Assembly: GCF_002858765.1 (NCBI RefSeq)
Contig: NZ_PJRP01000009.1
Coordinates: forward strand, 124,001 to 188,000
Source: Cupriavidus pauculus
GTDB lineage: Bacteria > Pseudomonadota > Gammaproteobacteria > Burkholderiales > Burkholderiaceae
Direction: 5' to 3'
Length of the DNA stretch: 64,000 bases
Shown: positions 27,381 to 45,069 of the stretch, in pieces
How the letters are laid out: each line of letters begins with the position of its first letter
How positions within the stretch are numbered: the stretch's first letter is position 1
Made by a program: the position numbers and the translations under genes
Notes under the pieces: model-generated
Told to the model about the DNA's origin: nothing
The model's database searches: none
The model's input: the letters and a program-made list of their open reading frames with translations, nothing else

Positions 27381-29678
27381 ATGACGGAACTCGTGTCAGG
27401 CCTGCTACGTGGCTGCATGCGGAAGGCCGTGGTGCCAATGGCCTTCGTGCTGGCCTTCCTCACGGCCGCGCTTCCCCAGGAAGCCGCCGCCCAGGCCGCC
27501 GCCCCGGCGGCTTCCGCGGCATCGGATGCCGCAGCGGCGCCGCCCGGGAAAACGCAAACCCTGACCTTCGCCCAGATGGGCGCCAACTACACGATCCCGC
27601 TACGCGGTGTCGATCCCGACCGCACGGTCAACGTCGGCGTCAGGCTGGACGAGGTGGTGACGGCAGCCAAACTGAAGCTCGTCTTCACGTATTCGCCGTC
27701 GCTGGTCTATCCGCTCTCGCACCTGAAGATCCGGCTCAATGACGAAGTAGTAGCCACGCTGCCGCTCGACCAGCAGCATGCCGGCCAGCAGGTTTCGCGC
27801 GAAATCGATCTCGATCCGCGCTTCTTCACCGACTTCAACCGCATCAACGTGCAGATGATCGCGCACTACACGCTCGATCATTGCGAAGACCCGTACCACT
27901 CCAGCCTGTGGACCGACATCAGCCCCACCAGCTCGCTGACGCTGACCAAGTCCACCGTCACCCTGCCCGACAACCTGGCGCTGCTGCCCGCGCCATTCTT
28001 CGACCGCCGCGACAACCGTCGCGTGACCGTGCCGTTCGTGCTGCCGGCCAATGCCGACCCGGTGACGCTGCGCGCGGCCGGGGTGGTCGCATCGTGGCTG
28101 GGCGCGCTGGCGAGCTATCGCGAGTTGCGCTTTCCGGTGACGCGCGCCGTGCCGGCCGATGCCCACGCCATCGCGCTGGTGCTGCCCAACGCGCAGCCTG
28201 ACGGCATCCGCATCGACAAGATCGAAGGCCCCACCGTCAGCGTGCTGCCCAACCCCGCCAACCCGGCGCGCAAGCTGCTGGTGCTGGCCGGCCGCACGCC
28301 GCAGGAACTGGAGGTGGCCGCCAACGCGGTGGTGCTGGGCAAGGCGGGCATGGCCGGCGCCAGCGCCATGGTGAAGACCGTGGACCTGGGCAAGCCGCGC
28401 CGACCCTATGACGCTCCGGCCTGGGCACCGGTCGATCGTCCGGTCATGTTCCGGGAACTCGTGACCGACCCGCAGCAGCTGCAGGTGTCGGGCGCCAGCC
28501 CCGATGCGATCCGCGTGAACCTGAAGGTGCCCGCCGACCTGTTTGGCTGGAACGATCGCGCCGTGCCGATGAACATGAAGTACCGCTACACGGCGCCCTC
28601 CACCTACAACGACTCGGTACTCAGCATCGACGTGAACGACCAGCTCGTGCGGTCGTACCGGCTCAAGCCGCTGACCGTGCAGACCGACGAGAACCTGGTC
28701 AGCGTGCCGCTGCTGTCGGGCGGCAGCGCCAGCGTCAGCAACGAGATCCTGATCCCGGCGTTCCGCGTGGGCAGCAACAACCAGATGCAGTTCCGATTCC
28801 ACATCGATTCGCAGAAGACCGGGCTGTGCTCGTCCAGCGCCGTCAACGTGGCGCGCGCCGCAGTAGACCCCGATTCATCGATCGACTTCAGCGGTTTCCT
28901 GCACTACGCGCAGCTGCCGAACCTGGCGTTCTTCGCCAACAGCGGCTACCCGTTCACGCGCATGGCCGACCTGGCCGATACCGCCGTGGTGATTCCCGAC
29001 GCGCCTAGCGCCATCGACCAGGAAGCCCTGCTGACCGTGCTGGGCCATATGGGCAAATGGACAGGGCTGCCGTCGCTGCGCGTGACCGTGACACCAGCCA
29101 AGGCCATCGATTCGGTCAAGCATCGCGACCTGGTCATCATCGGCACTGGCAGCGCCGCGCAGGTGCTGCAGCAGTGGGGCAAGTCGCTGCCGCTGCTGAT
29201 CGAGCGCGGCAAGACCGAGATTGCGTTGCGCGACCAGCGCGCGCACGCGTGGTCCAACTGGCTGAGCGGCGTGGACACCGACAGCATCTCGCCGGCCGGG
29301 CGCGCAATCCTGACCGCCGACGGGCCACTGGCGGCGCTGATCGGCTTTGAGTCGCCCTATGCCGAACGCCGCAGCGTGGTGGCGCTGACCGCCTCCGCCG
29401 ACGATCGCGTGCGCGATGTGCTCGATGTGCTGGAAGACCCGGGCAAGGTGGCGCAGATCCGTGGCGACCTGACCGTGATCCGCCAGCGCGACCTGGAAGG
29501 CCTGCGGCTGGGCGATACCTACTACGTCGGCAACCTGCCCTGGTACGCGCGCCTGTGGATGCAGATGTCGGCGCACCCCGCCCTGCTGGCGATTGCCGGC
29601 ATCCTGGCCGGTTTGCTCGTGGCGCTGACCCTGTTCTGGGCGCTGAGCCGTCTGGCGGCACGCCGCAACGGAGGCTGA
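27381..29678 (+). CDS. bcsB: Cellulose synthase periplasmic subunit BcsB
   Basis: A 765-residue periplasmic, membrane-anchored partner of BcsA that guides the nascent glucan across the periplasm. A signal peptide (about residues 13-37, ending QEAAAQ) is followed by carbohydrate-binding/flavodoxin-like repeats, and a single C-terminal helix (ALLAIAGILAGLLVALTLFW) reaches the inner membrane. Length fits family norms. It is the first gene of the operon, before bcsZ. Older annotation calls BcsB c-di-GMP-binding; the nucleotide actually binds the PilZ domain of BcsA. Confidence 0.93.
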   Translation: MTELVSGLLRGCMRKAVVPMAFVLAFLTAALPQEAAAQAAAPAASAASDAAAAPPGKTQTLTFAQMGANYTIPLRGVDPDRTVNVGVRLDEVVTAAKLKLVFTYSPSLVYPLSHLKIRLNDEVVATLPLDQQHAGQQVSREIDLDPRFFTDFNRINVQMIAHYTLDHCEDPYHSSLWTDISPTSSLTLTKSTVTLPDNLALLPAPFFDRRDNRRVTVPFVLPANADPVTLRAAGVVASWLGALASYRELRFPVTRAVPADAHAIALVLPNAQPDGIRIDKIEGPTVSVLPNPANPARKLLVLAGRTPQELEVAANAVVLGKAGMAGASAMVKTVDLGKPRRPYDAPAWAPVDRPVMFRELVTDPQQLQVSGASPDAIRVNLKVPADLFGWNDRAVPMNMKYRYTAPSTYNDSVLSIDVNDQLVRSYRLKPLTVQTDENLVSVPLLSGGSASVSNEILIPAFRVGSNNQMQFRFHIDSQKTGLCSSSAVNVARAAVDPDSSIDFSGFLHYAQLPNLAFFANSGYPFTRMADLADTAVVIPDAPSAIDQEALLTVLGHMGKWTGLPSLRVTVTPAKAIDSVKHRDLVIIGTGSAAQVLQQWGKSLPLLIERGKTEIALRDQRAHAWSNWLSGVDTDSISPAGRAILTADGPLAALIGFESPYAERRSVVALTASADDRVRDVLDVLEDPGKVAQIRGDLTVIRQRDLEGLRLGDTYYVGNLPWYARLWMQMSAHPALLAIAGILAGLLVALTLFWALSRLAARRNGG

Positions 29679-29679
29679 C

Positions 29680-30858
29680 ATGCGGCGGGCACGGGCCTGG
29701 CTGCGGCGCGCATCCCTACGCTGCGCCATCGCGTTCGCGATGGGCGGCGTGGCCCTGTCCGCCATGGCGGCCCAATGCCAGTGGACCGATTGGGACGCCT
29801 TCCGCCGCGACACGATCAGTCAGGACGGCCGCGTGATCGATGCCAGCACCAACGAGCAGGCCACGGTGTCCGAAGGGCAATCCTATGCGCTGTTCTTCGC
29901 GCTGGTGGCCAACGACCGCGCCACCTTCGACAAGCTGCTGGCCTGGACCGAGAACAACCTCGCCCAGGGCGATCTGACGGCCCATCTGCCCGCGTGGATC
30001 TGGGGCAAGCGCACCAAGGGCGAGCAGGCCGGCACGTGGGGCGTGATCGACCCGAACCCCGCATCCGATGCCGACCTGTGGATCGCGTACGCGCTGCTGG
30101 AAGCCGGCCGGCTCTGGAACGAGCGGCGCTACACGGCGCTGGGCACACTGGTGGCGCGGCGCGTATTGCGCGAGGAGACGGCCGTGCTGCCAGGCCTGGG
30201 CCGCACGCTGCTGCCCGGCCCGGCTGGCTTTCATCCCGCCCCCGACACCTGGCGGCTCAACCCCAGCTATGTGCCGCTGCCCGTGATGCGCCGGCTGGCG
30301 GCCGTGCTGGGCGCCGAAGACGGCGGCTGGAAGACACTGGTCGATACCTCGGCGCGGCTGATCGTCGATACGGCGCCGAAGGGCTTTTCGCCGGACTGGG
30401 TCCTCTATCGCAAGGGCCACGGCTTCCAGCCCGATACGGAGACCAAGGCCGACGGCGCGTACAACGCGATCCGCGTCTACCTGTGGGCCGGCATGACCGC
30501 GCCACGCGATCCGTCGCGGACGTCGGTCCTGCACGCCTTCCGCCCGATGGCTGACTATGTGGTGGCCCACGGTTATCCGCCCGAGCACGTTGACACGCAG
30601 GCCGGCACCTTCGGCCCGAACGCCGGCAACGCGGGCTTCTCGGCCGCCGTGGCGCCCTACCTGGCCGCGCTGGGCTTGGGCGATGCCGCCCGCGCCCAGG
30701 CCGGCCGTGCCCGCACGCTGGCCACGCAGCCCTCATTCGGCTACTACAGCCAGGTACTGGCGCTGTTCGGCCTGGGCCATCTCGACGGACACTTCCGCTT
30801 CGACGCGGACGGCACGCTGGTGCCGGCCTGGAAAACCACATGCCCCGCAACGCGCTAG
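29680..30858 (+). CDS. bcsZ: Periplasmic endoglucanase BcsZ (GH8)
   Basis: A 392-residue GH8 cellulase that trims glucan during secretion. A signal peptide (to about residue 30, ALSAMAAQ) precedes the catalytic domain. The acid Glu is in VSEGQSYALFFAL and the Asp region in NPASDADLWIAYALL; GHGFQPDTETKADGAYNAIRVYLW is also typical. ATG 29680 is preceded by GGAGG. The 3' end overlaps bcsC by 19 bp. Confidence 0.94.
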   Translation: MRRARAWLRRASLRCAIAFAMGGVALSAMAAQCQWTDWDAFRRDTISQDGRVIDASTNEQATVSEGQSYALFFALVANDRATFDKLLAWTENNLAQGDLTAHLPAWIWGKRTKGEQAGTWGVIDPNPASDADLWIAYALLEAGRLWNERRYTALGTLVARRVLREETAVLPGLGRTLLPGPAGFHPAPDTWRLNPSYVPLPVMRRLAAVLGAEDGGWKTLVDTSARLIVDTAPKGFSPDWVLYRKGHGFQPDTETKADGAYNAIRVYLWAGMTAPRDPSRTSVLHAFRPMADYVVAHGYPPEHVDTQAGTFGPNAGNAGFSAAVAPYLAALGLGDAARAQAGRARTLATQPSFGYYSQVLALFGLGHLDGHFRFDADGTLVPAWKTTCPATR

Positions 30859-33800
30859 CCTCCACGCTGGCGCTGTTGCTGGCCAGTTCCGCCATGCCTG
30901 CCTTTGCCGCAGATCCCGCCCCCGCCACGCGCGCCGCGCCCTCGCCCCAGATGGCGCAACTGCTGGCGTCCGCGCGGATGTGGGAAGCCAGGAACCGGGC
31001 GGACATGGCACGCGGCATCCTGGACAAGGCCCTGCTGATCGACCCGAACCAGCCCGAGGCACTGAAGCTGCTGGGCCTGATCGAAATCCGCTCGAACCGG
31101 CCGGCAGAGGCCGAGAAACAACTCAAGAAGCTGCGTACCGTGGCGCCCGACAGCCCTGAGACGCAAGAGCTTGACGACGCGTACCGCATCGCCACGCGCG
31201 ACAAGCGCGAAATGGCCAATGTCCGGCTGCTGTCGCGCAGCGGTCAGGACGACGAGGCAGTGCAGCGGCTGCAGAAGCTGTTCCCGCGCGGCGCACCGGC
31301 CGGCAGCCTGGCGCGCGACTACTATCGCATCCTGGCCGGCACGCCGGCCGGACGCACGCGGGCCATCGCCGAACTGCGCCAGCGCTCGCGCGCCAACCCG
31401 AACGACATGCAGCTCAAGCTCGCGCTGGGCGACCTGCTGACCGATCGCGAAGGCACGCGCCAGGAAGGCATCGCGCTGCTCTACGAGGTGACGCAGCGCC
31501 CCGAAGGCGACCGCGCCACGGCGCTCGACGTCTGGCGGCGCACGCTGTACCGCGTCAACGAGGATCCCGCCTATTACGTCTGGTTCGAGCGCTACCTGAA
31601 GGAAGCGCCCGACGACAAGGCCGCGCAGGACACGCTGGCCGCACTGGGCAAGAAGGTGGCGGCGCAGAAACAGCTTGAAGCCGATCCGGCCTACCAGGCG
31701 CGGCAGCGCGGACTGGCGCAACTGGAGCGTGGCCAACTCAAGGATGCCGACATCGCGCTGCAACAGGCCTACCAGAAACGCCGCAACGACGCCGAAGTGG
31801 TGGGCGGCCTGGGGCTGGTGCGGCTGCGCGAGGGCCGGCACGACGAGGCCCGCGAACTGTTCACGCGCGCCAACCAGATCGATCCCGGCAACAAATGGCG
31901 CAGCCTGATCGCCACGGCCACGTTCTGGGGCACGGTGGCCAAGGCGCGCGAGGCGAACAAGCAGGGCAAGCCCGCCGAGGCCGAGCAACTGGCGCGCCAG
32001 GCGCTGGCCCAGCAACCGAACAACGAGGACGCGCAGAACATCCTGGCCGAAGCACTGGTGGCCCAGAACAAGAACCGCGAAGCGGAGACACTGCTGCGGC
32101 AGATGCTGGCGCGGCCCAAGCCCGATGTCGGCGCGCTGCGCGCGCTGGTGGGCATCCTGCAGAAGGAAGGCCGCGATGCCGAAGTGGAGCCGCTGATCGC
32201 CAGCCAGGCATCGCGCATGAAGGGCTCGGAGGCCGAGCTGCGCACCATGCGGGCAGACCTGCTGTCGGTACGCGCGGATCAGGCGCTGGCCCAGCAGAAG
32301 CGCAGCCCGGCCATCCGCGACCTGGAAGATGCCATTCGCCTGCGGCCCGACGACCCATGGATGCGGTTCACGCTGGCGCGCGTTTATCGCGACCTGAGCC
32401 TGCCCGCGCTGGGCCGCAGCGTCATGGACGATGGCATGCGCGCCGCTCCCGGCAACGAGATGCGCTATGCCAGCGCGCTCTATCTGAACAGCGTGGACGA
32501 TATCGACGCCGCCGCCACGACACTGGCCGCCGTGCCGCAAGCCAGCCGCTCCGAAGGCATGCACAACCTGGCGCACAACCTGGCCGCCCAGCACATGCTG
32601 CGCGATGCGCGCCAACGCGTGGCCGAGGGCCGTGACGACGAGGCACGCCGGCTGCTGGACCAGGCGGCCGTGGAAGCGAAGGATGATCCGCATATGCTGG
32701 CCTCGATCGGCCGCGAATGGATCGCGCTGGGCGAAGCCGACAAGGGTCTGCGCCTGGTCAGCGACTGGCTGGCCGACCATCCGCAAGCGCCCAATCTCGA
32801 TGTCCGCCTGCGCTACGGCGAACTGCTGGCGGCCGCCGATCGCGACGACGCCCTGCGTCAATGGATCGCCGACTCGACCGCCCTGCCCGGCATCACCGCC
32901 GAACAGCGTGCGGACTTTGCCGACCAGTCGCTGCGGCTGGCGCTGCGCGAGACCGATCGCCAGATCGAAGCCGGCGACCTGCGGCGCGCGCAACAGGTGC
33001 TGTACGCCGTGCCCGCCGGGCAGCAAACGGACCGGCGCTGGCTGCTGGAACTGGCGGACCTGCGCCAGGCCGCAGGCGACTACAAGGGCGCGGCCGACGC
33101 TGCGCGCCAGGTGCTGGCCACGCAGCCACACGACGCCGGCGCCCAGCTCACGCTGGCGCGTCAGTACGAAGGGATGGGCCAGACGGGCCAGGCGCTCGAC
33201 ATCGTGCGCACGGTGCTGGCCGAAACGCCGGAAGACGACATCGACACGCGGCTGTCGGTGGCGCGCCGCTTCACCGCGATGCGGCATGAGGACGAAGCGG
33301 CGCAGGTCGGGGACGACCTGGACGCGCGCTTTCCGAACCGTGCGGACATCACCGTGCAGCGCGGCCGCATCGCCCAGTCGCGCGGCGACTTCGACGAGGC
33401 CGCCGGCATCTATCGCGCCGCCCTGCCGCTGGAACAGCACGAAAGCGTGCTGCCCGGCCCCGAAGGCACGCCCGCCCAACGCGCGCTGGCCGGGCTGGAC
33501 GCGCGACGCCAAGGCGAAGTGGCCACGGCCGTCATGCAGTCGAACAAGTCGGGCGACGCCGGCATCTCGCGGCTGCATGCCACAGAGATTCCGCTCTATG
33601 TGCGCATTCCGCACGGCTACACCGGCCATGCGTTCTTTCATGCCGACACCGTGCTGCTCGATGCCGGCACGCTGCGCGGCGGCGCGCCGGTCGGCAACCT
33701 GGAGTTCGGCAAGATTCCCGCGCTCGGCAATGCCGGGCTGGGCAATATCGGGCAGACCGACAAGGGCCTGGCGCTGGCGGCCGGCTACGAATACGACGGC

Positions 33801-34634
33801 GCCTACAACAAGTGGCGCGCCGATATTGGCACCACGCCGCTCGGCTTCCTGGAAAGCACGGTGGTGGGTGGGCTGCGGTATCGGGCCGACCTGGGCGTGC
33901 AGTCGGTGACCGTGGACGTCTCGCGGCGCGCGCAGACCAGTTCGCTCATCTCGTACGCCGGCGCGCGCGATCCGGTCACGGGCGAGCACTGGGGCGGCAT
34001 CGTGCGCAATGGGGTGCACCTGCGCTACGCGCGCGATGTGGGCCGCCTGGGCCTGTTTGCCGACGTCGGTGCCGGCCTCTACACTGGTGACAACGTCAAG
34101 ACCAACCGCGAAGTGACGCTGCGGACAGGCCTGGATGTGCCGGTCTACGCGAAGCGGGACCAGCGCGTGACCAGCGGCCTGGTCTTCAACTGGTGGCACT
34201 ACTCGGAAAACCAGCGCTTCTACACATTTGGCCACGGCGGCTACTACAGTCCGCAGCGCTATGTTTCGGTCAGCGTGCCGCTGGACTGGACGGGCCGCTA
34301 CGCCAAGTGGTCGTGGCGCCTGCTGGGCTCCGCCGGGTGGTCGTGGACCTTCGAGGACGCCGCGCCGTTCTTTCCGACGCGGCCCGACCTTCAGGCGCTG
34401 AGCGGTAACGCCACCTATGGCGGCGGATCGGGCGGCGGCTTCAGCTACACGCTGGGCGCGACAGTGGAATACACGTTTGCGCCGCACTGGGTGGTGGGCG
34501 CCGGCTTCTCGATCGATCGCTCGCGCGACTATGCGCCGAATCGCGCCATGGCCTGGCTGCGCTACCTGTTCGACAAGCGACAGCTGCCGGTGCCATTCCC
34601 GCCAACGCCGGTGCGGCCATATTCGGCCTATTGA
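30840..34634 (+). CDS. bcsC: Cellulose export protein BcsC (TPR plus outer-membrane barrel)
   Basis: A 1264-residue export protein. A signal peptide (LASTLALLLASSAMPAFA) leads into about 850 residues of TPR repeats that form a periplasmic scaffold, then a C-terminal BcsC barrel from about residue 900 that forms the outer-membrane pore, ending in aromatic PVRPYSAY. Length matches E. coli BcsC (about 1150). ATG 30840 overlaps the bcsZ 3' end, indicating coupling. bcsE begins 8 bp after the stop. Confidence 0.94.
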   Translation: MPRNALASTLALLLASSAMPAFAADPAPATRAAPSPQMAQLLASARMWEARNRADMARGILDKALLIDPNQPEALKLLGLIEIRSNRPAEAEKQLKKLRTVAPDSPETQELDDAYRIATRDKREMANVRLLSRSGQDDEAVQRLQKLFPRGAPAGSLARDYYRILAGTPAGRTRAIAELRQRSRANPNDMQLKLALGDLLTDREGTRQEGIALLYEVTQRPEGDRATALDVWRRTLYRVNEDPAYYVWFERYLKEAPDDKAAQDTLAALGKKVAAQKQLEADPAYQARQRGLAQLERGQLKDADIALQQAYQKRRNDAEVVGGLGLVRLREGRHDEARELFTRANQIDPGNKWRSLIATATFWGTVAKAREANKQGKPAEAEQLARQALAQQPNNEDAQNILAEALVAQNKNREAETLLRQMLARPKPDVGALRALVGILQKEGRDAEVEPLIASQASRMKGSEAELRTMRADLLSVRADQALAQQKRSPAIRDLEDAIRLRPDDPWMRFTLARVYRDLSLPALGRSVMDDGMRAAPGNEMRYASALYLNSVDDIDAAATTLAAVPQASRSEGMHNLAHNLAAQHMLRDARQRVAEGRDDEARRLLDQAAVEAKDDPHMLASIGREWIALGEADKGLRLVSDWLADHPQAPNLDVRLRYGELLAAADRDDALRQWIADSTALPGITAEQRADFADQSLRLALRETDRQIEAGDLRRAQQVLYAVPAGQQTDRRWLLELADLRQAAGDYKGAADAARQVLATQPHDAGAQLTLARQYEGMGQTGQALDIVRTVLAETPEDDIDTRLSVARRFTAMRHEDEAAQVGDDLDARFPNRADITVQRGRIAQSRGDFDEAAGIYRAALPLEQHESVLPGPEGTPAQRALAGLDARRQGEVATAVMQSNKSGDAGISRLHATEIPLYVRIPHGYTGHAFFHADTVLLDAGTLRGGAPVGNLEFGKIPALGNAGLGNIGQTDKGLALAAGYEYDGAYNKWRADIGTTPLGFLESTVVGGLRYRADLGVQSVTVDVSRRAQTSSLISYAGARDPVTGEHWGGIVRNGVHLRYARDVGRLGLFADVGAGLYTGDNVKTNREVTLRTGLDVPVYAKRDQRVTSGLVFNWWHYSENQRFYTFGHGGYYSPQRYVSVSVPLDWTGRYAKWSWRLLGSAGWSWTFEDAAPFFPTRPDLQALSGNATYGGGSGGGFSYTLGATVEYTFAPHWVVGAGFSIDRSRDYAPNRAMAWLRYLFDKRQLPVPFPPTPVRPYSAY

Positions 34635-34642
34635 GCGGCACC

Positions 34643-36460
34643 ATGAGCCAGGGACCCGCGATGAACGACGCCGTACGCACCTCCGCCCCACCCCGCACTG
34701 CACCGCAGCGCGCGCCGCTGACCGCGCGGCTGCACGCGCGAGCAATGCTGGCCATCGAAGGGCTGGCCCCTGCCTTGGCCACGCTGGCGCCGGGCCGCGC
34801 GCACGTGGTCTACGCACAGCCGTCCCCGGCACGCGATGCGCTGTTCTGGCAGACCGCCGCCAGCGTGCTGCGCGCCCCGGCCTGCGTGCTGTCCACCCGT
34901 GACGCCGACAACATTGCCAGTGCGCTGCGCGAGCATGGTCTCGACATCGAGGTGAACCGGGCGCTCCATGCGCGGGCCAACCTGTGCGCGCTGCGCCCAG
35001 CCGCCGGGCGCAGCGGCATCGACGTACTGATCGAAGCGCTGGACGCGCTCGTCGAGCAGTGCGGTGCGCGCGGCACGACCTTTCTTCTGGAAGGCGCGGA
35101 AGCGTTCTTCAACTGGCACGATGCCACGGCGCTGGCTCATGAGGGCGTGCGGCTCAGCGAATGGTGCGCGGGGGAACGCTGCGCGCTGCTGCTGGTGATG
35201 GCACCGCCGGCCGCGGAAGACGGCCAGCCCGCACCGGACCTGCACGGCTTTCACGGCCGCTTTGCCGGCGCGGTGCAACTGTCGCAGCAGCAGGGCCAGT
35301 ACACGTGGGAGGTGGCCTTCTGGCGCGACAACCAGGCCGTGGTGGCTGGCGAGGTACTGCGCCTGCGCTTTGCCCCGAACGAGCATCGCCTGATGGTGGC
35401 ATCGGACACCTATAGCGACGCCATCGAGGAAGCCGGCATGCTGGCGCCCGACGAGCAACGGGTGATCGTCAGCCGCGAGACGGTACTGCGCGAGCGCCAT
35501 ATCCCCGAAGACTGGCGCGTGGTGGACAGCAACGAGGCCGCCGTGGCCACCGCCAGCAAATCGGTGGCCGCCACGGTGATCCTGCACTACGCCGGCACGC
35601 GCGACCTGGAGAAGCTGGCCGGCCAGGTGCACCGGCTGCGCCGCAGTGCCGGGCGCGCCCTCAAGATCGTGATCCGCGAAGACCGCGAAGCCATGCGCCA
35701 ACACTACGAACTGCTGATGCTCAACCTGGGCGCCAACGCCGTGGTGGCGCAGCGCACCCCGTTCGCGCGCATGCAGGCGATGATCGACGGGCTGCAAGGA
35801 CAGGTGTTCTCGCGGCCGATCCTGGCGGACTACCGCAACGCCCTGTCCGCCGTGCTGACCACCACGGCCAGAGGCTATGTCACCGCGTCGACCTTCATCG
35901 CGCTGGTGCGCGACGCGGTCGAGCGCAGCCGCATGATCCGCCTGCCGCACGTGCTGCTGCAACTGCCGCTACTGCCCGAGGTAGCCCATATCGACGTGCT
36001 GCGCGCCTGCCATATGAGCCGCGCGGGCGACCTGTGCACGGCCGGCAGCGACAGCCTCTATGCGTTCTTCTTTGCCTGCCGCATGGACGATGTGGATGCG
36101 GTCTGCCAGCGCGTGTTCAAGCGCCCGATGGCCGATCTGTTCCAGGGCGACCTGCGCAGCGGCGACAACGAGTCGATTGCCGCCGAGCTGTCCCGGTTCG
36201 AGGCCGAGATCGCGGAATCGCCACCGCCCGACTACAGCACGTGGCTGCCGGTGCAGCCGACGCCGCCGGCGCAAGCGGAAGACGGACAACCCGTCCAAGC
36301 CGACACTGCGCCGGCGGACGCCACTGCCGCCGCCATCGCGCCCACCCCGGAGGCGGCATCCGTCACGCTGCCCTTGATGGCACCGAGGCGCGCGAGCCCG
36401 AGCGCGGCGCCGCGCGCGCTGCCGGCGCACCATCCGGTGCCCCTCAAACGTCAGGACTGA
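34643..36460 (+). CDS. bcsE: c-di-GMP-binding cellulose regulator BcsE
   Basis: A 605-residue cytosolic protein of the BcsE (GIL-domain) family that recruits c-di-GMP to the secretion complex. The c-di-GMP motif RxGD is visible (HMSRAGDLCTAGSD) at about residues 455-460, followed by FFFACR and VFKRPMADLFQGD, typical of BcsE. The C-terminal 100 residues are Pro/Ala-rich and probably disordered. Start ambiguous: ATG 34643, ATG 34661 (better ribosome binding site) or TTG 34631. Followed closely by bcsF. Confidence 0.88.
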   Translation: MSQGPAMNDAVRTSAPPRTAPQRAPLTARLHARAMLAIEGLAPALATLAPGRAHVVYAQPSPARDALFWQTAASVLRAPACVLSTRDADNIASALREHGLDIEVNRALHARANLCALRPAAGRSGIDVLIEALDALVEQCGARGTTFLLEGAEAFFNWHDATALAHEGVRLSEWCAGERCALLLVMAPPAAEDGQPAPDLHGFHGRFAGAVQLSQQQGQYTWEVAFWRDNQAVVAGEVLRLRFAPNEHRLMVASDTYSDAIEEAGMLAPDEQRVIVSRETVLRERHIPEDWRVVDSNEAAVATASKSVAATVILHYAGTRDLEKLAGQVHRLRRSAGRALKIVIREDREAMRQHYELLMLNLGANAVVAQRTPFARMQAMIDGLQGQVFSRPILADYRNALSAVLTTTARGYVTASTFIALVRDAVERSRMIRLPHVLLQLPLLPEVAHIDVLRACHMSRAGDLCTAGSDSLYAFFFACRMDDVDAVCQRVFKRPMADLFQGDLRSGDNESIAAELSRFEAEIAESPPPDYSTWLPVQPTPPAQAEDGQPVQADTAPADATAAAIAPTPEAASVTLPLMAPRRASPSAAPRALPAHHPVPLKRQD

Positions 36461-36463
36461 CCC

Positions 36464-36661
36464 ATGGCAACGTTTCTTGGCTATTTCATCTGGGGACTGA
36501 TCCTGGCCGCGCCGCTGGCCTGGCTGACCTGGCGTTTCGACCTGCTGCGCTGGCTGCCGCGCTGGACTGCGCCGCGCCCGCGCCGCGCCGTACGGCTGCC
36601 GCCGCAACTCGATGCGCTGGTAATCCGCGGCAAGCGCCAGTCTGGCGGGGGACGCCGATGA
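36464..36661 (+). CDS. bcsF: Small membrane protein BcsF
   Basis: A 65-residue single-pass protein: one hydrophobic helix (FLGYFIWGLILAAPLAWLTW) then a basic tail rich in Arg and Pro. Size, topology and place next to bcsE fit BcsF, which anchors BcsE at the membrane. It starts 3 bp after bcsE and overlaps bcsQ by 4 bp. Confidence 0.82.
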   Translation: MATFLGYFIWGLILAAPLAWLTWRFDLLRWLPRWTAPRPRRAVRLPPQLDALVIRGKRQSGGGRR

Positions 36662-37488: not shown

Positions 37489-40082
37489 GTACGCGCCTGC
37501 CACGACTGCGACAGTGGATGGTGTCGGCCCGCCAGCGGGTGGCACGCGAACTGGGCGTAGGCACCAGCACCGGCACCGGCACCGGCACCGTTCCCCATGC
37601 TGGCGACTGGCTGCTGCGCCTGTTCTTCCGGCCGCCTCGTCCGGGCAAGCCCGATGTTCCTGCGGAATGGGCCTCGCTGATCTACCGGCGTTCGGTGGCA
37701 CGCCTGGGCATCGGCAAGCGTCCTTCTGCCGGCACCTGGGTCTGGCGTCTGTTCGTCCGTCCGCCCAAGCCACGCGTGCGCCTTGCCGCCGACCCGCGCA
37801 AGCAGCGCGCCGCCGTGGAGCCCGAACGCACGGGCTGGCTGCGCCGATGGATGGATCGCGTGCTGGAACCGCTCTGGCATGCCGCGTCGCGGCTGCGGCA
37901 CAAGGCTCTGACGCACCTGCCCCGCCCCGACTGGAATCGCGTGGCCTATGTCACGGAGGCCGTGTCGGCGCGCGTGGGCCGCATTCCGTTCGTGCTGCCG
38001 GTGTCGCTGGTGCTGGCCGCCATTGCCGTCCTGGCCGTCAGCACCACGCCGCTGCGGTTCGAGGACCAGGTCGTGCTGTTCGCGGTGGTCTGGCTCGTGC
38101 TGAGCGTGGTGCGGCGCGTGCCGGGGCACCTGGCGACGATCACGATGATCGCCATCTCCACACTGATGGCGGGCCGCTATATCTGGTGGCGATCGACGCA
38201 GACGCTGCAGTTCGCCAGCGCCATCGAAGCCGCGGTCGGCTACGTGCTGTACGCGGCCGAAATCTACACGTGGATCGTGCTGGCGCTGGGCTATCTGCAG
38301 ACGGCATGGCCGCTGCACCGCAAGCCAAAACCGCTGCCGGTCGACCCCGCGCAATGGCCAACCGTGGATGTCTTCATCCCGACCTACAACGAGTCACTGA
38401 GCGTGATCCAGCCCACCGTCTACGCCGCGCGCAGCATGGACTGGCCGGCGGACAAGCTGCGCGTCTTCATCCTGGACGATGGCCGCCGCCCGCACATCCA
38501 CGAGTTCGCCGAGGCCGCCGGCGTGGGCTACCTGACGCGCACCGACAATCGGCACGCCAAGGCCGGCAACATCAACGCGGCGCTGCCGAAGACCGACGGC
38601 GACTACATCGCCATCTTCGACTGCGATCACATCCCTACCCGCTCGTTCCTGCAAATGACCATGGGCGAGTTCCTGGCCGATCCCAACTGCGCGCTGGTGC
38701 AGACGCCCCATCACTTCTTCTCGCCCGATCCGTTCGAGCGCAACTTCGACACGTTCCGCCGCGTACCCAACGAAGGCAGCCTGTTCTATGGCCTGATCCA
38801 GGACGGCAACGATTTCTGGAACGCCACGTTTTTCTGCGGATCGTGCGCGGTGATCAAGCGCGCCCCGCTACTGGAAATCGGCGGCATCGCCGTGGAGACG
38901 GTGACCGAGGATGCGCACACGGCGCTGAAACTGCACCGGCTTGGCTACAACAGCGCCTACCTGCGCACCGTGCAGGCTGCGGGGCTGGCCACGGAAAGCC
39001 TGTCGGGCCATATCGGCCAGCGCATCCGCTGGGCGCGCGGCATGGCGCAGATCTTCCGGCTCGACAACCCGATGCTGGGCCGTGGCCTGAAATTCTTCCA
39101 GCGGCTGTGCTACAGCAACGCGATGCTGCATTTCTTCTACGGCATCCCCCGGCTGATCTTCCTGACGATGCCGATTGCCTACCTGTACTTCGGCCTGCAC
39201 GTGATCAATACGTCGGCGATGCTGATCATGGCCTACGTGCTGCCGTACCTGCTGATCGCCAACATCACCAACTCGCGCCTGCAGGGGCGCTTCCGCCATT
39301 CGTTCTGGGCCGAGGTCTACGAGTCGGTGCTGGCCTGGTACATCGTGCTGCCCACCACGGTGGCCTTCATCAACCCGCGCGCAGGCAAGTTCAACGTAAC
39401 GGCCAAGGGCGGCCAGATTGCCGACGACTACCTGGACTGGACGATCTCCAAGCCCTACCTGTTCCTGCTGGCGCTGAACGTGATCGGGCTTGGCGCCGGT
39501 ATTGCGCGGCTGCTGTTCTGGGGCACCGAAGAACCCGCCACGGTGCTGATGAACATGGCGTGGGCCCTGTTCAACCTGATGATGCTGGGCGCGGCCGTTG
39601 GCGTGGCACGCGAGGCGCGGCAGGTGCGGGTATCGCATCGCATTCCGATGCGCGTGCCCGCCACGTTGCTGCTGCCCGATGGCCGCACGCTGGCCTGCAA
39701 GACCGAGAACTATTCGATTGGCGGGCTGGGCGTGGTGCTGCCGATCGACGTGCAGCTGCAGGAAGGCGCGCGGGTGGGCGTGTGCCTGTCGCGCGGCCCG
39801 CGCACCTATCACTTTCCTGCCGTGGTCACACGCAACGTGAACCGGCATCTGGGCGTGCGGATGGAAGACCTGACGATGGCGCGCGAGACCCAGCTGATCC
39901 AGTGTACGTTCGGCCGTGCCGATGCTTGGGTCGACTGGCTGGACGACGAGCGCGTGGACGCGCCGCTGCGCAGCCTCAAGGAAGTCATGGAGATGGGCTA
40001 CCAGGGCCTGCTGCGGCTCTACGACGCCCTGATGGACGCAGTGGACCTGGTCATGGCGCGACGCCGCTCGCGCCAGCCCTGA
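37485..40082 (+). CDS. bcsA: Cellulose synthase catalytic subunit BcsA (GT2 plus PilZ)
   Basis: An 865-residue membrane GT2 enzyme that polymerises UDP-glucose into beta-1,4-glucan and threads it across the membrane. Key residues: DCDHIP (DxD), TEDAHTAL (TED, catalytic Asp region) and QRIRWARGM (QxxRW). The C-terminal PilZ domain has RVSHRIPMR and ENYSIGG, the c-di-GMP-binding pair (Asn replaces the usual Asp). An N-terminal extension of about 150 residues holds a Gly-Thr repeat from a DNA hexamer repeat. ATG 37485 overlaps the bcsQ stop. Confidence 0.95.
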   Translation: MSTRLPRLRQWMVSARQRVARELGVGTSTGTGTGTVPHAGDWLLRLFFRPPRPGKPDVPAEWASLIYRRSVARLGIGKRPSAGTWVWRLFVRPPKPRVRLAADPRKQRAAVEPERTGWLRRWMDRVLEPLWHAASRLRHKALTHLPRPDWNRVAYVTEAVSARVGRIPFVLPVSLVLAAIAVLAVSTTPLRFEDQVVLFAVVWLVLSVVRRVPGHLATITMIAISTLMAGRYIWWRSTQTLQFASAIEAAVGYVLYAAEIYTWIVLALGYLQTAWPLHRKPKPLPVDPAQWPTVDVFIPTYNESLSVIQPTVYAARSMDWPADKLRVFILDDGRRPHIHEFAEAAGVGYLTRTDNRHAKAGNINAALPKTDGDYIAIFDCDHIPTRSFLQMTMGEFLADPNCALVQTPHHFFSPDPFERNFDTFRRVPNEGSLFYGLIQDGNDFWNATFFCGSCAVIKRAPLLEIGGIAVETVTEDAHTALKLHRLGYNSAYLRTVQAAGLATESLSGHIGQRIRWARGMAQIFRLDNPMLGRGLKFFQRLCYSNAMLHFFYGIPRLIFLTMPIAYLYFGLHVINTSAMLIMAYVLPYLLIANITNSRLQGRFRHSFWAEVYESVLAWYIVLPTTVAFINPRAGKFNVTAKGGQIADDYLDWTISKPYLFLLALNVIGLGAGIARLLFWGTEEPATVLMNMAWALFNLMMLGAAVGVAREARQVRVSHRIPMRVPATLLLPDGRTLACKTENYSIGGLGVVLPIDVQLQEGARVGVCLSRGPRTYHFPAVVTRNVNRHLGVRMEDLTMARETQLIQCTFGRADAWVDWLDDERVDAPLRSLKEVMEMGYQGLLRLYDALMDAVDLVMARRRSRQP
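37560..37589 (+). repeat. Hexamer repeat GGCACC in the 5' part of bcsA
   Basis: Five tandem hexamers (four GGCACC and one AGCACC) encode Gly-Thr/Ser-Thr pairs at about residues 26-35 of BcsA. Unit changes would stay in frame. Confidence 0.8.
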
Positions 40083-40092
40083 TCGAGACAAC

Positions 40093-41649
40093 ATGGGACT
40101 CTGGAACCTCTACCTCCTCGCCAAGCTCTACCTGTTCCACACCGGGCAGATGAAGCCGATATGGCTCCTGAACATCCTGTTTGCGCTGCTGCTGGTGGCG
40201 CCCATGGAATCGCGCCCGTTGCGGGTAATCCGCCAGGTGCTGGCGATCGGCCTGGGTGCGGCGCTGGCATGGCACGAATCCATGCTGCCGCCGTTCGAGC
40301 GCGTGATCTCGCAGTTCTCGAACATCCGCGCGTTCACGCCTGCCTACCTGATGGAGCTGCTGCAGCGCCTGGTGACGATCCAGATGGTGGTGGCCGTGCT
40401 GCTGGTGCTGGTGATCTTCCTGCTGGTCAACCGCTGGCTGCGTACCACCACGTTCGTGCTGCTCGCGCTGTTCGCGATGCCGTTCTGGTACGGCCTGGGC
40501 GTGACGCTGCCGGGCCGCGGCGCCGCCGTGGCGCAGGCGGCCGACAGCCCGCGCGCGGACATCAACGCCACCAACAACTACGACGCCATCCTGACCGCGT
40601 TCCGCGAGCAGGAAGCCCAGCGCACGGCCACGGTGGCACCGCTGACCGCCAGCCCCGACGCGCAGTTCGATGTCATCGTGCTGCATATCTGTTCGCTGTC
40701 GTGGGATGACCTGGATGCGGCAAAGAGCCTGAACCACCCGCTGCTGTCGCGCTTCGACTACCTGTTCAAGAACTTCAGCTCGGCCGCCAGCTACAGTGGC
40801 CCCGCCGCCATCCGTGTGCTGCGCGGAGCGTGCGGGCAGGAGCCGCACAAGAACCTGTACGATCCGGCCCCGGCCGAATGCCACATCTTCGCCGATCTGG
40901 CCCAGGCCGGCTTCACGCCGCATGTGCTGATGAACCACGACGGCCGTTTCGACAACTTCCGTGGCTACGTGGACAAGGAGATCGGCGTGCAGGGCGTGCA
41001 GCCGGAGGCCACCGACGGCGTGCCGGTGGCGATGCGCGCGTTCGACGATTCGCCGGTGCTGGGCGACTTCGACACGTTCGATCACTGGTACAGGCAGCGC
41101 CTGTCGCAGGACAAGAAGCCGGTGGCGCTGTACTACAACACCGTGACGCTGCACGACGGCAACCGCCTGCCGGGCAAGCGGCTGACCAGCCTGGAGTCGT
41201 ATCCGCTGCGGCTCAAGGCGCTGCTGGACGACGTCGACCGGATCATCGACACCATCGCCAAATCCGGCCGCAAGGCCGTGGTGGTATTCGTGCCCGAGCA
41301 CGGCGCGGCGCTGCGCGGCGACAAGAACCAGATTTCGGGGCTGCGCGAGATTCCCACGCCCAACATCATCCACGTGCCGGTCGGCGTCAAGCTGGTGGGC
41401 CTGCCCGGCACCGAAACGCCGCAACCCGTGACCATCGACGCGCCGATGAGCTTCCTGGGATTGTCGCAACTGGTGTTCAACCTCGTGGCCGACAGCCCGT
41501 TCCGCCAAGGCGCGCCGGGGCTCTCGCACTATTCCGACGACTTGCCGCAGACCCAGATGGTGGGCGAGAACGAGGGCACGGTCACGATGAAGCGTACCGA
41601 GGGCTACGTGGTGCACACGCCCGACGGCGTCTGGGTGGAGCAGAAATGA
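40093..41649 (+). CDS. bcsG: Cellulose phosphoethanolamine transferase BcsG
   Basis: A 518-residue inner-membrane enzyme with about four N-terminal helices and a periplasmic alkaline-phosphatase-fold domain from about residue 165. BcsG transfers phosphoethanolamine from phosphatidylethanolamine to cellulose. The nucleophile Ser lies in FSSAASYSGPAAIRVLRG and metal ligands in HICSLSWDDL and VPEHGAALRGD. Length matches E. coli BcsG (about 559). It starts 10 bp after bcsA, so this organism probably makes pEtN-cellulose. Confidence 0.93.
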   Translation: MGLWNLYLLAKLYLFHTGQMKPIWLLNILFALLLVAPMESRPLRVIRQVLAIGLGAALAWHESMLPPFERVISQFSNIRAFTPAYLMELLQRLVTIQMVVAVLLVLVIFLLVNRWLRTTTFVLLALFAMPFWYGLGVTLPGRGAAVAQAADSPRADINATNNYDAILTAFREQEAQRTATVAPLTASPDAQFDVIVLHICSLSWDDLDAAKSLNHPLLSRFDYLFKNFSSAASYSGPAAIRVLRGACGQEPHKNLYDPAPAECHIFADLAQAGFTPHVLMNHDGRFDNFRGYVDKEIGVQGVQPEATDGVPVAMRAFDDSPVLGDFDTFDHWYRQRLSQDKKPVALYYNTVTLHDGNRLPGKRLTSLESYPLRLKALLDDVDRIIDTIAKSGRKAVVVFVPEHGAALRGDKNQISGLREIPTPNIIHVPVGVKLVGLPGTETPQPVTIDAPMSFLGLSQLVFNLVADSPFRQGAPGLSHYSDDLPQTQMVGENEGTVTMKRTEGYVVHTPDGVWVEQK

Positions 41650-41906
41650 GCGCGCGTGCTGTCGTCAAACCCATTACCAAACCGATTACGTCGCGCAAGG
41701 CGGCCATTGCCTACAACGACATCGACGCCCTGGCCCAGAAGGTCGACGGCTTCGACGGCAGCCACTACTTCGACCAGCAGGGGGAGGTGGAAACGGCCGA
41801 AGCCGCGCAACGCTGGCCACTGCTGGCGCGGGTGATGGGGCTGCCATCGACGCCCCGCCACGCCGCTGCCCCCTCGCTGCGCGCATCGCAAGACGACGGC
41901 GCTTGA
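41646..41906 (+). CDS. bcsR: Cellulose regulator BcsR
   Basis: An 86-residue soluble protein. The core NDIDALAQKVDGFDGSHYFD and EAAQRWPLLARVMGL match the BcsR/BcsP family (E. coli BcsR ends in a similar RWPLLAE motif). The ATG overlaps the bcsG stop by 4 bp, so it is the last gene of the operon. Enteric bcsR instead precedes bcsQ, so this order is different. BcsR partners BcsQ in regulating the complex. Confidence 0.85.
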   Translation: MSARAVVKPITKPITSRKAAIAYNDIDALAQKVDGFDGSHYFDQQGEVETAEAAQRWPLLARVMGLPSTPRHAAAPSLRASQDDGA

Positions 41907-42054
41907 CACCAAATTTCGCGCCGGCTGATCCACTACGACCGCCACCCCTCGCGAGTAGGGCTGCATGCCTTGATTCGCAACGCTTTTCGTCACGGATTCG
42001 ACATAAAGGCCGCCTAGACTCTGGGCCATTTTCCAATTCCGTGCTCGCACCGTC

Positions 42055-43302
42055 ATGTCTGGCTTCCTGGTGGATTCTCCTGCTGCACGACCGCGCTTCC
42101 GGCAGCCATGCGCGGAGGATCTGGCCGTCTCCACGCCGTCGGTCAACACTGACCATACGAACCAGGACGTGCTGGAAGTCTTTGCGATGCACCGGGAGCT
42201 GGCCTGCCTGCCCGTCACCGAGCAAGGCCGGCCCATCGGCCTGATCAACCGGTCGATCTTCCTGTCGCAGATGAGCAAGCCGTACCACCGCGAGCTCTAC
42301 AACCGCAAGAGCTGCATCGCGTTCATGGACAAGGAGCCGCTTGTCGTCGACGCCGAAATGAGTATCGACGCGCTGACGTTCCGCACGGTGGAGTACGGCG
42401 AGAAGGCGCTGGCCGATGGCTTCATCGTGGCGCGTGCCGGCCAGTACATCGGCCTGGGCCACGGCCTGCAGCTGATGCGCGTGGTGGCCGACATGCAGGC
42501 CGAGCGCAACCGCCAGATCATGCACAGCATCGACTACGCCAGCACGATCCAGCGGGCCATGCTGCGCACGTCACGCGAAACGCTCGCCGCCACGTTGGCC
42601 GATGCCGCGCTGGTCTGGGAGCCGCGCGACGTGGTGGGCGGCGACTTCTACCACTTCGCCGCCTTCCAGGACGGCTGGTTTGCCGCGCTGGCCGACTGCA
42701 CGGGCCACGGCGTGCCGGGCGCCTTCATGACGCTGATCGCGTCGTCGCTGCTGAGCCAGGCCCTGGAGCAACTGGGGCCCCGCGACCCTGGCGCGCTGCT
42801 GATGGCCGTGAACCGCGGCATCAAGCAGATGCTGGCCCAGACCGATCGCGAACCGCGGCAGACGCCCGACGCGTCGGAATCGGACGATGGCCTCGACGCC
42901 GCGTTCTTCTGGTTCGACAACACCACGCGGCAACTGACATTTTCCGGCGCGAAGTCGTCGCTGTTCGTGCTGCAGCCCGGCGACGCCGAAGGCGAGATGA
43001 TCAACGGCGCGCGCATGGGCGTGGGCTACGTGGACACGGCCATGGACTACGTCTGGCACAACAGCACCATGCAGACGCAGGCGGGTACGCTGGTCTTCGT
43101 GACCACCGATGGGCTGATCGACCAGATCGGCGGTCCCAAGGAAATTGCGTTCGGCAAGCGTCGCATGCGCGAGGCGATCTGCACGCAGCGCGAGGCATCG
43201 GCCACCCAGATCAGCGACGCCGTGCTGGACGTGCATCGCGCGTGGCAAGGCGAGCAACGCCGCCGCGACGACCTGACATTCTTCTGTTTCCGTGCGCAAT
43301 GA
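42055..43302 (+). CDS. siaA: SiaA-like PP2C/SpoIIE phosphatase with CBS-like N-terminus
   Basis: A 415-residue cytosolic phosphatase. The C-terminal SpoIIE/PP2C domain (about 165-415) has metal-binding motifs VVGGDFYHF, DCTGHGVPGAF, TDGLIDQIGG and RRDDLTFF. In SiaA this domain dephosphorylates SiaC to activate the cyclase. Instead of SiaA's membrane sensor, the first 150 residues look like a CBS pair (LACLPVTEQGRPIGLINRS, then RELYNRKS). It lies 148 bp after bcsR on the same strand and begins the sia-like module. Weak ribosome binding site. Confidence 0.85.
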   Translation: MSGFLVDSPAARPRFRQPCAEDLAVSTPSVNTDHTNQDVLEVFAMHRELACLPVTEQGRPIGLINRSIFLSQMSKPYHRELYNRKSCIAFMDKEPLVVDAEMSIDALTFRTVEYGEKALADGFIVARAGQYIGLGHGLQLMRVVADMQAERNRQIMHSIDYASTIQRAMLRTSRETLAATLADAALVWEPRDVVGGDFYHFAAFQDGWFAALADCTGHGVPGAFMTLIASSLLSQALEQLGPRDPGALLMAVNRGIKQMLAQTDREPRQTPDASESDDGLDAAFFWFDNTTRQLTFSGAKSSLFVLQPGDAEGEMINGARMGVGYVDTAMDYVWHNSTMQTQAGTLVFVTTDGLIDQIGGPKEIAFGKRRMREAICTQREASATQISDAVLDVHRAWQGEQRRRDDLTFFCFRAQ

Positions 43303-43332
43303 CACCCTACCTGCGCACCCAACCGCTTGCCC

Positions 43333-43905
43333 ATGACCGCCGCACATTCGATTGACAAGGAATATGAGCCGTTCTTCCAGATGGCTCGGGAACGCAACGT
43401 GATTTTCTACTACGTCGGCTACTTTTCGCAGAACATCATCGCCGCCATGTCCGATGCGGTGCGACTGCAGCTTACCGTGAGCGGCGTGGATGGCACCACG
43501 CGGCGCAAGCTGTTCTCGTCGTTCGTGGAGATGGCGCAGAACATCGTTCACTATTCGTCCGATTCGCTGACGTCGCCGTCGCAGCCGGACGGGCAACTGC
43601 GCCACGGCTCGGTCTGCATCAGCATGGTGGACGAGCACTACCGCCTGATGTGCTCGAATCCGGTATCCTCGGCCCGCGTCGAGCAGTTGCGCGGCACGCT
43701 GGAGCAAGTGCGGACCATGACCCTGGAAGAAATCAAGCGTGCCTACAAGGAAACCCTGCGCGCCGACGCCCCCGAAGGCAGCAAGGGCGCCGGGCTTGGC
43801 ATCCTGACGATGGCGCGCGATGCGAGCGCGCCCCTGGAGTACAACTTTCAGCCGATCGACACGGACCCGGTCTCGACGATGTTCCAGCTCGTCGCCACCA
43901 TCTGA
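43333..43905 (+). CDS. siaB: SiaB-like kinase/regulator
   Basis: A 190-residue protein of the SiaB (DUF6272) family. The segment FVEMAQNIVHYSS resembles a GHKL N-box and SKGAGLGILTMA a G-box, matching an ATP-binding kinase fold. SiaB phosphorylates SiaC on Thr in Pseudomonas. ATG 43333 chosen over TTG 43327. It lies 30 bp after siaA and 25 bp before siaC. Confidence 0.85.
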   Translation: MTAAHSIDKEYEPFFQMARERNVIFYYVGYFSQNIIAAMSDAVRLQLTVSGVDGTTRRKLFSSFVEMAQNIVHYSSDSLTSPSQPDGQLRHGSVCISMVDEHYRLMCSNPVSSARVEQLRGTLEQVRTMTLEEIKRAYKETLRADAPEGSKGAGLGILTMARDASAPLEYNFQPIDTDPVSTMFQLVATI

Positions 43906-43930
43906 CCCCGACCGATCGCACCGAACCGCC

Positions 43931-44320
43931 ATGGAAAACCTGTTCATCGCCGCCACGCCAAGCTCGCCCGAAGTGAGCTTCGACTTCGCGCGGCACACGC
44001 TCTCGCTCAAGGGCGAGTCCTACCCCGAGAATGCCGCCGTGTTCTACGGCGAGGCGATCAGCCGCCTGCGCAAGTACCTTGCGGAATGCGACGACACGGA
44101 CGTCACCGTGAACGTGGCCCTGACGTACTTCAACAGCTCGAGCACCAAGATGCTGTTCAGCATGTTCGACGCGCTCAGCGAGGCAGCCGAGCGCGGCAAC
44201 CACGTCACCCTGCACTGGTTTCACGATGAAGACGACGACACCATCCTGGAATTTGGCCAGGAACTGCACGACGACTTCCCCGCCATCGACTTCATCGACG
44301 AAGTGACCACCAGCAGTTGA
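43931..44320 (+). CDS. siaC: SiaC-like phosphoprotein
   Basis: A 129-residue protein of the SiaC (DUF1987) family. The phospho-acceptor Thr should be that in FNSSSTKMLFSMFD, like the site in Pseudomonas SiaC. Unphosphorylated SiaC binds and activates SiaD. Gene order A-B-C-D matches the Pseudomonas operon. The stop overlaps a TTG start of the next gene. Confidence 0.88.
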   Translation: MENLFIAATPSSPEVSFDFARHTLSLKGESYPENAAVFYGEAISRLRKYLAECDDTDVTVNVALTYFNSSSTKMLFSMFDALSEAAERGNHVTLHWFHDEDDDTILEFGQELHDDFPAIDFIDEVTTSS

Positions 44321-44334
44321 ACGCGCCGCGCGAC

Positions 44335-45069
44335 ATGCTCCCCGCCGCCGCCATGTCGGAACCCGACCTGTTTGAATCGGAGAACAGCGCCCTGGCCCAC
44401 GCCAAGGCGGTGTTCTGCGACGTGGACGCCGGGGAGGAAGCCTATCGCCATACGCTCGGCCAACTGATCAGCTATTACGAACGGCTGATGCGCGAGACGC
44501 GCCGCCTGATCCGCCGCAGCGACCGCGAAGAGCTGGAGATGAATCGGCTGAACCACCGGCTGCAGGAACTGGCCCAGGAACTGGAGTATCGCGCCACGCA
44601 CGATACGCTGACCGGTGCGCTGAACCGTGGCGCCGTGATCGACCGCGCCACCGCCGCGCTGGCTCGCGGCAGCCTGGCGCTGATCGTGCTCGACATCGAC
44701 TACTTCAAGCGGCTCAACGACGATTTCGGCCATCCGGCCGGCGACACCGTGATCTGCGGCGTCACGGCCTGCCTGAAGGACACGGTTCGTGCCGAAGGCG
44801 CGATCGGCCGCGTGGGCGGCGAGGAATTCGCCGCGCTGCTGCCTGATTTCTCGCTAGACGAGGCGCTGGACCTGGCCGAACGGATGCGCTGCGCCATCGC
44901 CGGCCACGATTTCCCATCGCCCGTGAACCGCCAGGTGACGGCCAGCTTCGGTGTGAGCTGGTCGGCCCAGGGCCGCTCGTTCGAGCACGCCTATGGCCGC
45001 GCCGACGAGGCCCTGTACGAAGCCAAGCGCAGCGGCCGCAACCGCGTGACCCGCGCCCTCGTCGCGTGA
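44335..45069 (+). CDS. siaD: SiaD-like diguanylate cyclase (no I-site)
   Basis: A 244-residue cytosolic cyclase. A helical N-terminal region with coiled-coil character (about residues 20-90, LISYYERLMRETRRLIRRSD) fits SiaC binding; the GGDEF domain is at 90-240. The active site is intact (RVGGEEFAALL). The I-site position reads RAEG rather than RxxD, so feedback inhibition is probably absent. Start uncertain: TTG 44317 (4 bp overlap with siaC), ATG 44335 or ATG 44353. Confidence 0.87.
   Translation: MLPAAAMSEPDLFESENSALAHAKAVFCDVDAGEEAYRHTLGQLISYYERLMRETRRLIRRSDREELEMNRLNHRLQELAQELEYRATHDTLTGALNRGAVIDRATAALARGSLALIVLDIDYFKRLNDDFGHPAGDTVICGVTACLKDTVRAEGAIGRVGGEEFAALLPDFSLDEALDLAERMRCAIAGHDFPSPVNRQVTASFGVSWSAQGRSFEHAYGRADEALYEAKRSGRNRVTRALVA

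Follow-up and report, generated by a model that had tools for sequence, protein, structure and literature searches.

In Pseudomonas aeruginosa, the sia genes are arranged in the order siaA-siaB-siaC-siaD, and the long N-terminal sensor part of SiaA is membrane-bound. The bcs genes for cellulose synthesis of Escherichia coli are distributed over two operons, and rhizobial celR provides examples of a GGDEF gene in cellulose operons. In the SiaABCD system, SiaB and SiaA were described to set the phosphorylation of SiaC, the unphosphorylated form of which activates the cyclase SiaD (PMC7647112, PMC8457831); according to PMC12834913, SiaA of P. aeruginosa responds when the membrane is perturbed. 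For the YfiBNR (TpbB) system, PMC10127611 describes a repression of YfiN by YfiR that is relieved by redox stress, and states that most YfiN homologues are devoid of an RxxD motif. A PAS/GGDEF gene has already been reported in the cellulose operons of Proteus/Enterobacter operon clades (PMC7112194). Here, we analyzed a 64,000-nucleotide stretch of Cupriavidus pauculus DNA (contig NZ_PJRP01000009.1, positions 124,001 to 188,000; referred to as the window) from a genome of 7.4 Mb in 38 contigs (G000), in which a type II bcs operon stands between a YfiRNB module and a SiaABCD-like module, both of them cyclase modules for cyclic diguanylate (c-di-GMP), the known activating signal of cellulose synthesis. 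The first-pass annotation of this DNA knew of no report of a bcs-sia locus and, in agreement, none was described in the titles and abstracts found by searches of the open-access literature.

The bcs operon comprises nine genes in the order bcsBZCEFQAGR (27381-41906, plus strand) and is followed after 148 bp by siaABCD (42055-45069) on the same strand, as deduced from Pfam matches and open reading frames. The first-pass annotation had proposed this arrangement, and it was confirmed by Pfam for eight of the nine bcs genes and by position and conservation for bcsF; its assignment of the downstream genes to the SiaABCD type held as well. Like the E. coli type II system, the window contains bcsA, B, C, E, G, Q, R and Z plus a bcsF-like gene, with bcsE and bcsG alongside bcsA, B and C; unlike in E. 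coli, these form a single run that is flanked by two c-di-GMP modules. The sia genes lie together on one strand in the order A-B-C-D and have the same four functions as their P. aeruginosa counterparts (PMC7647112, PMC8457831), with the PP2C phosphatase, kinase, phosphoprotein and cyclase all matching the respective structures; in contrast to that system, the module stands beside bcs. The YfiRNB module that precedes bcs, not mentioned in the first-pass annotation, resembles YfiBNR in that yfiR, yfiN and yfiB occur together, and differs from it in its place beside a cellulose operon. Compared with the known GGDEF-bearing cellulose operons, the window has a bcs operon of the exchangeable kind enclosed by a four-protein partner-switch module and a module that senses the periplasm.

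At this one chromosomal site, the two c-di-GMP modules vary less than the cellulose operon, which is exchangeable. Among 60 Cupriavidus genomes searched, SiaC was found in 24, BcsB in 45 and BcsE in 30, and bcs and sia were adjacent in 16 of the 24 sia-positive ones, 15 of which were placed by rpoB and one by its sia genes. In an rpoB tree of 57 genomes (three without an rpoB match were left out, including the linked G012), the 15 linked genomes together with G017 formed one clade (bootstrap 100, Shimodaira-Hasegawa-like approximate likelihood ratio test [SH-aLRT] 99); G012 grouped with two linked clade members by its sia genes (100/99). The slot before siaA was occupied by a type II bcs operon in 13 genomes, by a bcsQABZC operon in three, and by no bcs genes in one, G017. 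Eleven of the 13 type II-linked genomes were read by gene, and G004 and G030 were judged from coordinates (BcsE approximately 8-9 kb from SiaC, same strand). The aminotransferase gene (class IV, PF01063; 26251-27177, minus strand) that borders the slot on its left in each of the three states was seen there at all type II sites but one (12 of 13); in the remaining one (G009) the left side is cut by the contig end and the symporter gene is present on the right.

The bcsQABZC operons of G005 (C. pampae), G026 (C. plantarum) and G027 end 170-239 bp before the siaA start codon; their BcsB shows only 41% identity, and bcsE, F, G and R gave no matches there. These sites share the window's left-hand genes, from w8776 or w9599 to the aminotransferase gene, at 57-96% identity, and the symporter gene is located on their right side too, 11-18 kb past siaC versus 3.3 kb in the window. 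As the bcs type differs between sites that agree in sia and in their flanks, we read this as an exchange of the bcs operon. In the sia tree, the 24 Cupriavidus rows stood together (100/99), with the three bcsQABZC-linked sets beside the rest of the clade at moderate support (89/95). In G017, siaA is the next gene of the site after the aminotransferase gene, with no bcs in the slot. Its type II bcs operon lies on another contig and nests within the tree of sia-linked bcs operons (SH-aLRT 97); for this reason it appears to have moved away from the site. Outside the clade, six genomes (G015, G019, G031, G033, G040 and G042) carry type II bcs next to these left-hand genes as well, with yfiRNB absent from that place and SiaC from the genome.

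The YfiRNB module consists of yfiR, encoding a periplasmic repressor of YfiN (20570-21193; PF13689), yfiN/dgcN, encoding a CHASE8-HAMP-GGDEF diguanylate cyclase (21190-22503), and a gene for a yfiB-type OmpA lipoprotein (22514-23038), all on the plus strand. The three products exceeded the NCBIfam equivalog cut-offs (NF053586, 159.7 versus 85 bits; NF007423, 494.2 versus 325 bits; NF053585, 205.7 versus 128 bits). Of the 15 clade sites examined, the window among them, 14 had yfiN upstream by gene calls and tblastn, namely 10/11 type II sites, 3/3 bcsQABZC sites and G017; G009 and G012, both cut by contig ends, are left out of this count. At the one negative site (G089), no yfiN was present in the 14.4 kb read upstream, and in G036 yfiR and yfiN were seen and yfiB was not. 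Outside the clade, yfiN was found upstream at none of 16 type II and none of 13 bcsQABZC loci (29 loci from 27 genomes, one covering only 7.2 kb), a count limited to the surroundings of bcs; none was found beside the displaced bcs operon of G017 either. Between the module and the aminotransferase gene lies a gene for a PAS-GAF-GGDEF-EAL protein (23286-25883, plus strand; EAL motif present, GGDEF motif reading SGDEF), which was not found upstream at the three bcsQABZC sites, G083 and G036. Unlike most YfiN homologues (PMC10127611), the window YfiN retains an RxxD motif (RDSD, residue 336) before GGDEF. As judged from these motifs, YfiN and SiaD, which has no aspartate at the I-site, may differ in product inhibition.

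A search against PDB sequences retrieved P. aeruginosa Sia structures with all four Sia proteins: SiaA-PP2C 6k4e with SiaA (6.5e-47), 6kko_A with SiaB (6.7e-11), 6kko_C/6k4f with SiaC (8e-18) and 7e6g with SiaD (1.3e-24, with seven other GGDEF chains ranking above). The siaA-like gene (42055-43302) encodes a protein of 415 amino acids composed of an N-terminal CBS region (24.7 bits versus a cut-off of 24), a long helix and a SpoIIE/PP2C domain. Compared with the 658-position SiaA model, it matched only from position 405 on, CBS and helix replacing the long N-terminal part; in contrast to P. aeruginosa SiaA, its input part is of the CBS type and no membrane segment is apparent, the latter judged from a structure model (mean predicted local distance difference test score 87.1) without a membrane-segment predictor. 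Pfam detected CBS in 30 of 34 aligned SiaA members at E 0.01; the second CBS half of SiaA gave no Pfam match. Judged by their titles, the top 50 Foldseek matches of the model were all phosphatases, a few of the titles naming plant or stressosome complexes, so that the CBS assignment rests on Pfam, a weak profile match (0.0014) and the fold pattern of the model. In the PP2C domain, Asp197, Asp214, Gly217, Asp352 and Gly353 were invariant in the 34 SiaA proteins and align with residues named in PMC7647112, the metal-binding aspartates among them.

The siaB-family kinase gene (DUF6272; about 43333-43905) passed the NCBIfam subfamily cut-off (NF038262, 207.6 versus 85 bits). In the alignment of SiaB with 6kko_A, a glutamate is aligned in an EMxQNxxHY motif and is a candidate counterpart of Glu61 in PMC7647112. 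The SiaC phosphoprotein (43931-44320; PF09345) has a phosphorylatable residue, Ser69, at the position of the P. aeruginosa phosphosite Thr68, and Ser69 is the predicted phosphosite. Serine instead of threonine was found there in 80/80 rows (window plus 79 of 80 loci; L025 is omitted because siaB and siaC were fused by the gene caller).

SiaD (44317-45069, start possibly at the ATG at 44335) is a GGDEF-family cyclase with a GGEEF motif. Its stalk motif S68-D-R70-E-E72 aligns with the proximal SiaC-binding motif S82-D-R84-Y-Q86 of P. aeruginosa SiaD (PMC8457831; the chain numbering is one higher than that of the publication), Gln86 being replaced by Glu72. Ser68, Asp69, Arg70 and Glu72 were present in 75/75 rows (window plus 74 of 80 loci; of the six omitted, five gave no SiaD match and L057 was missed by the gene caller). 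With the I-site residues given in PMC8457831 as reference, the RxxD motif reads R158-A-E-G161; aspartate occupied this place in 0/75 rows, Arg158 was found in 6/75, and Arg189, aligned with Arg201, in 50/75. Used alone as query, the stalk retrieved no Sia structure; the SiaD family profile retrieved one, at rank three. Other arrangements were seen at several sia loci outside the window. In L043, L044, L048, L063 and L075 (four Chitinimonas and one Burkholderiales metagenome-assembled genome), the order was siaA, siaC, siaB with no SiaD match, and in the two read by gene (L043, L075) a gene of approximately 380 codons came next, perhaps encoding a different output. A second GGDEF protein (38% identical, opposite strand) is encoded just past siaD in G006 (L032:12638-13309). 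In two Burkholderia-group genomes (L091, L096) and in Pseudorhodoferax (L094), the same-strand protein after siaD clusters with a GGDEF-EAL protein of L034, itself a relative of the window gene product at 23286.

A named scan gave 246 stretches with a SiaC relative, the best 80 of which were kept; bcs genes were present in the DNA examined for 11 of these 80, all from Cupriavidus or one "Ralstonia" strain grouped with that genus. Among 399 Burkholderiales genomes, SiaC was found in 62, BcsB in 50 and both in 15, two of them linked Cupriavidus. The other 13 showed no linkage within 25 kb; three carried both on the same contig, at least 44 kb apart. In the other ten the two are on different contigs, so that a linkage could be hidden, and the BcsB matches are weak in four of the 13. 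The class sample of 370 genomes (SiaC in 12, BcsB in 26) showed linkage nowhere except in the window's own genome, and just one other genome had both, its BcsB match being below threshold. An accident of a single strain was rejected from the 16/24 count, and a widespread adjacency from these two samples. The neighborhood search that the first-pass annotation had proposed thus placed the adjacency in one Cupriavidus clade, so that confinement to this strain, which it had named as an argument against the locus, does not apply.

The best explanation, to which we assign a probability of roughly 0.6, is a clade-specific c-di-GMP/cellulose locus of Cupriavidus in which SiaA, SiaB and SiaC gate the cyclase SiaD. 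By analogy with P. aeruginosa, we infer that the same SiaB/SiaA-SiaC-SiaD switch operates in the window locus. SiaB would phosphorylate SiaC on Ser69, and the CBS-PP2C protein SiaA would dephosphorylate it upon sensing a ligand inside the cell, perhaps an adenine nucleotide; free SiaC would bind the SiaD stalk and switch on c-di-GMP synthesis. The c-di-GMP formed would bind to the PilZ domain of BcsA and to BcsE and increase cellulose production, an output to which YfiN would contribute in response to signals in the periplasm. The c-di-GMP may act locally or through the common pool; the local supply to BcsA/BcsE that the first-pass annotation had suggested is a plausible hypothesis. Of the two candidate receptors, BcsA (37485-40082), a GT2 protein with QxxRW and TED, carries the PilZ motifs RxxxR (715) and NxSxxG (742), and BcsE (34631-36460; PF10995, TIGR03369) has two RxGD motifs (residues 464 and 509). 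The c-di-GMP/cellulose locus is most strongly supported by the two cyclase modules that flank a slot whose cellulose operon changes.

Several observations weigh against this explanation. The strongest objections are the origin of the linkage in one inherited event followed by one loss, the state of G017, and sia loci outside the genus with no bcs nearby. On the rpoB tree, the linkage needs only two changes, one gain and one loss, and is therefore a single inherited event rather than many. As G017 keeps both c-di-GMP modules with no bcs between them, the adjacency is dispensable. In the scan, 69 of the best 80 SiaC loci had no bcs match in the DNA examined. The adjacency had been called fixed in the first-pass annotation; this overstates what is a clade trait, since 8 of the 24 sia-positive Cupriavidus genomes lack it, one of them the clade member G017 and another G080, for which the judgement comes only from a highly fragmented assembly with the two on different contigs, and in the samples searched the adjacency was unseen outside the genus. 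The raw co-occurrence of the two systems (BcsB in 24/24 sia-positive versus 21/36 sia-negative Cupriavidus; Fisher p 1.4e-4) was rejected as evidence, because the tree leaves only four independent contrasts, at most one of which shows a difference in BcsB. The NCBIfam equivalog cut-offs were reached by none of SiaA, SiaB, SiaC and SiaD (187/700, 73/225, 87/150 and 152/290 bits, respectively), for which reason the window sia genes are regarded as a homologous module and not as the named equivalogs, and no counterpart of the distal SiaC-binding motif could be recognised in the SiaD alignment. Finally, sia probably has its own promoter, since a block upstream of siaA is also conserved where no bcs lies upstream.

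In an alternative explanation, bcs and sia are neighbors by ancestry: a general-purpose sia module would have landed once beside a cellulose locus and serve the cell-wide c-di-GMP pool and other outputs, the adjacency having no function. The single gain and loss, the separation in G017, the many contexts of sia in other genera, in Burkholderiales mostly without bcs, and the 13 unlinked Burkholderiales genomes with both families (ten of them with the two on different contigs) all agree with it. However, three species have a different bcs operon in the same slot, at short distance from siaA, and 14/15 sites retain a second cyclase module at the far end of the slot; chance alone would predict neither of these, although recombination through the shared flanks could produce them. 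We consider this alternative possible, but not probable. An extension of the c-di-GMP/cellulose locus, which we put forward only tentatively, is a cellulose "socket", in which YfiRNB (periplasm) and SiaABCD (cytosol, via the CBS-phosphatase) would form the conserved unit, any bcs operon in the slot would come under their control, and successive non-orthologous effectors would have been captured in place.

It is unlikely that bcs and sia form one transcript with sia as the tail of the bcs operon. The common strand and the short distance of bcsR to the siaA start codon, 96-149 bp in nine other type II genomes measured, are compatible with such a transcript. On the other hand, the block upstream of siaA is conserved in G017 as well as in the linked species, and less strictly in four of five other unlinked Cupriavidus aligned, although a consensus scan of the 148-bp region (41907-42054) revealed neither a sigma-70 site nor a terminator; as the block points to a separate promoter, cotranscription is not supported. 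The G+C-rich inverted repeat between bcsR and siaA, a possible terminator although it has no T-run, also argues against a common transcript; a hairpin was predicted in some relatives (L030, L033) and not in the window's own fold. Furthermore, sia is retained when the slot is emptied or refilled. Between bcsC and siaA of L125-L127, G+C-rich inverted repeats of the CCCTCTCCCC type resemble repetitive extragenic palindromic (REP)-type elements or terminators. That YfiRNB is the main input to the cellulose operon, with sia acting instead on motility or a different adhesin, appears quite improbable: the equivalog-level assignment of YfiRNB and the redox-relieved repression described in PMC10127611 would fit, but sia is the nearer same-strand c-di-GMP module and both modules are retained together at 14/15 clade sites.

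The remaining bcs genes of the window, all on the plus strand, are bcsB (27381-29678; PF03170, 727.5 bits), bcsZ for a GH8 cellulase (29680-30858; PF01270), bcsC (30840-34634; PF05420 and TPR), bcsQ (36658-37488; PF06564, TIGR03371), bcsG (40093-41649; PF11658, 664 bits) and bcsR (41646-41906; PF10945). The bcsF-like gene (36464-36661) encodes 65 amino acids with no Pfam match and was assigned by its position after bcsE and by homologues at the same place in relatives; it is thus the weakest of the nine assignments. Irregular bcs genes were seen in three other genomes. In G089, bcsG is split into two open frames of 137 and 374 amino acids (L123:5313-6868), perhaps by a frameshift or sequencing error. 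The type II bcs operon of G023 (L118) is rearranged, with bcsF-Q-A-G-R and bcsE opposed and BcsB matched in two pieces. The sole BcsB match of G034, included in the 45 counted above, is a short remnant with an internal stop (G034:C2:697364-697627).

The CBS-type SiaA suggests a cytosolic input, whereas the sensing described for P. aeruginosa is linked to the membrane. It has long been asked whether individual cyclases supply individual c-di-GMP targets locally, and the Cupriavidus site offers a natural comparison series for this question: between the two cyclase modules stands type II bcs, a bcs operon of another type or none at all. Owing to this same-site series, a local c-di-GMP supply to cellulose synthesis is directly testable in close relatives.

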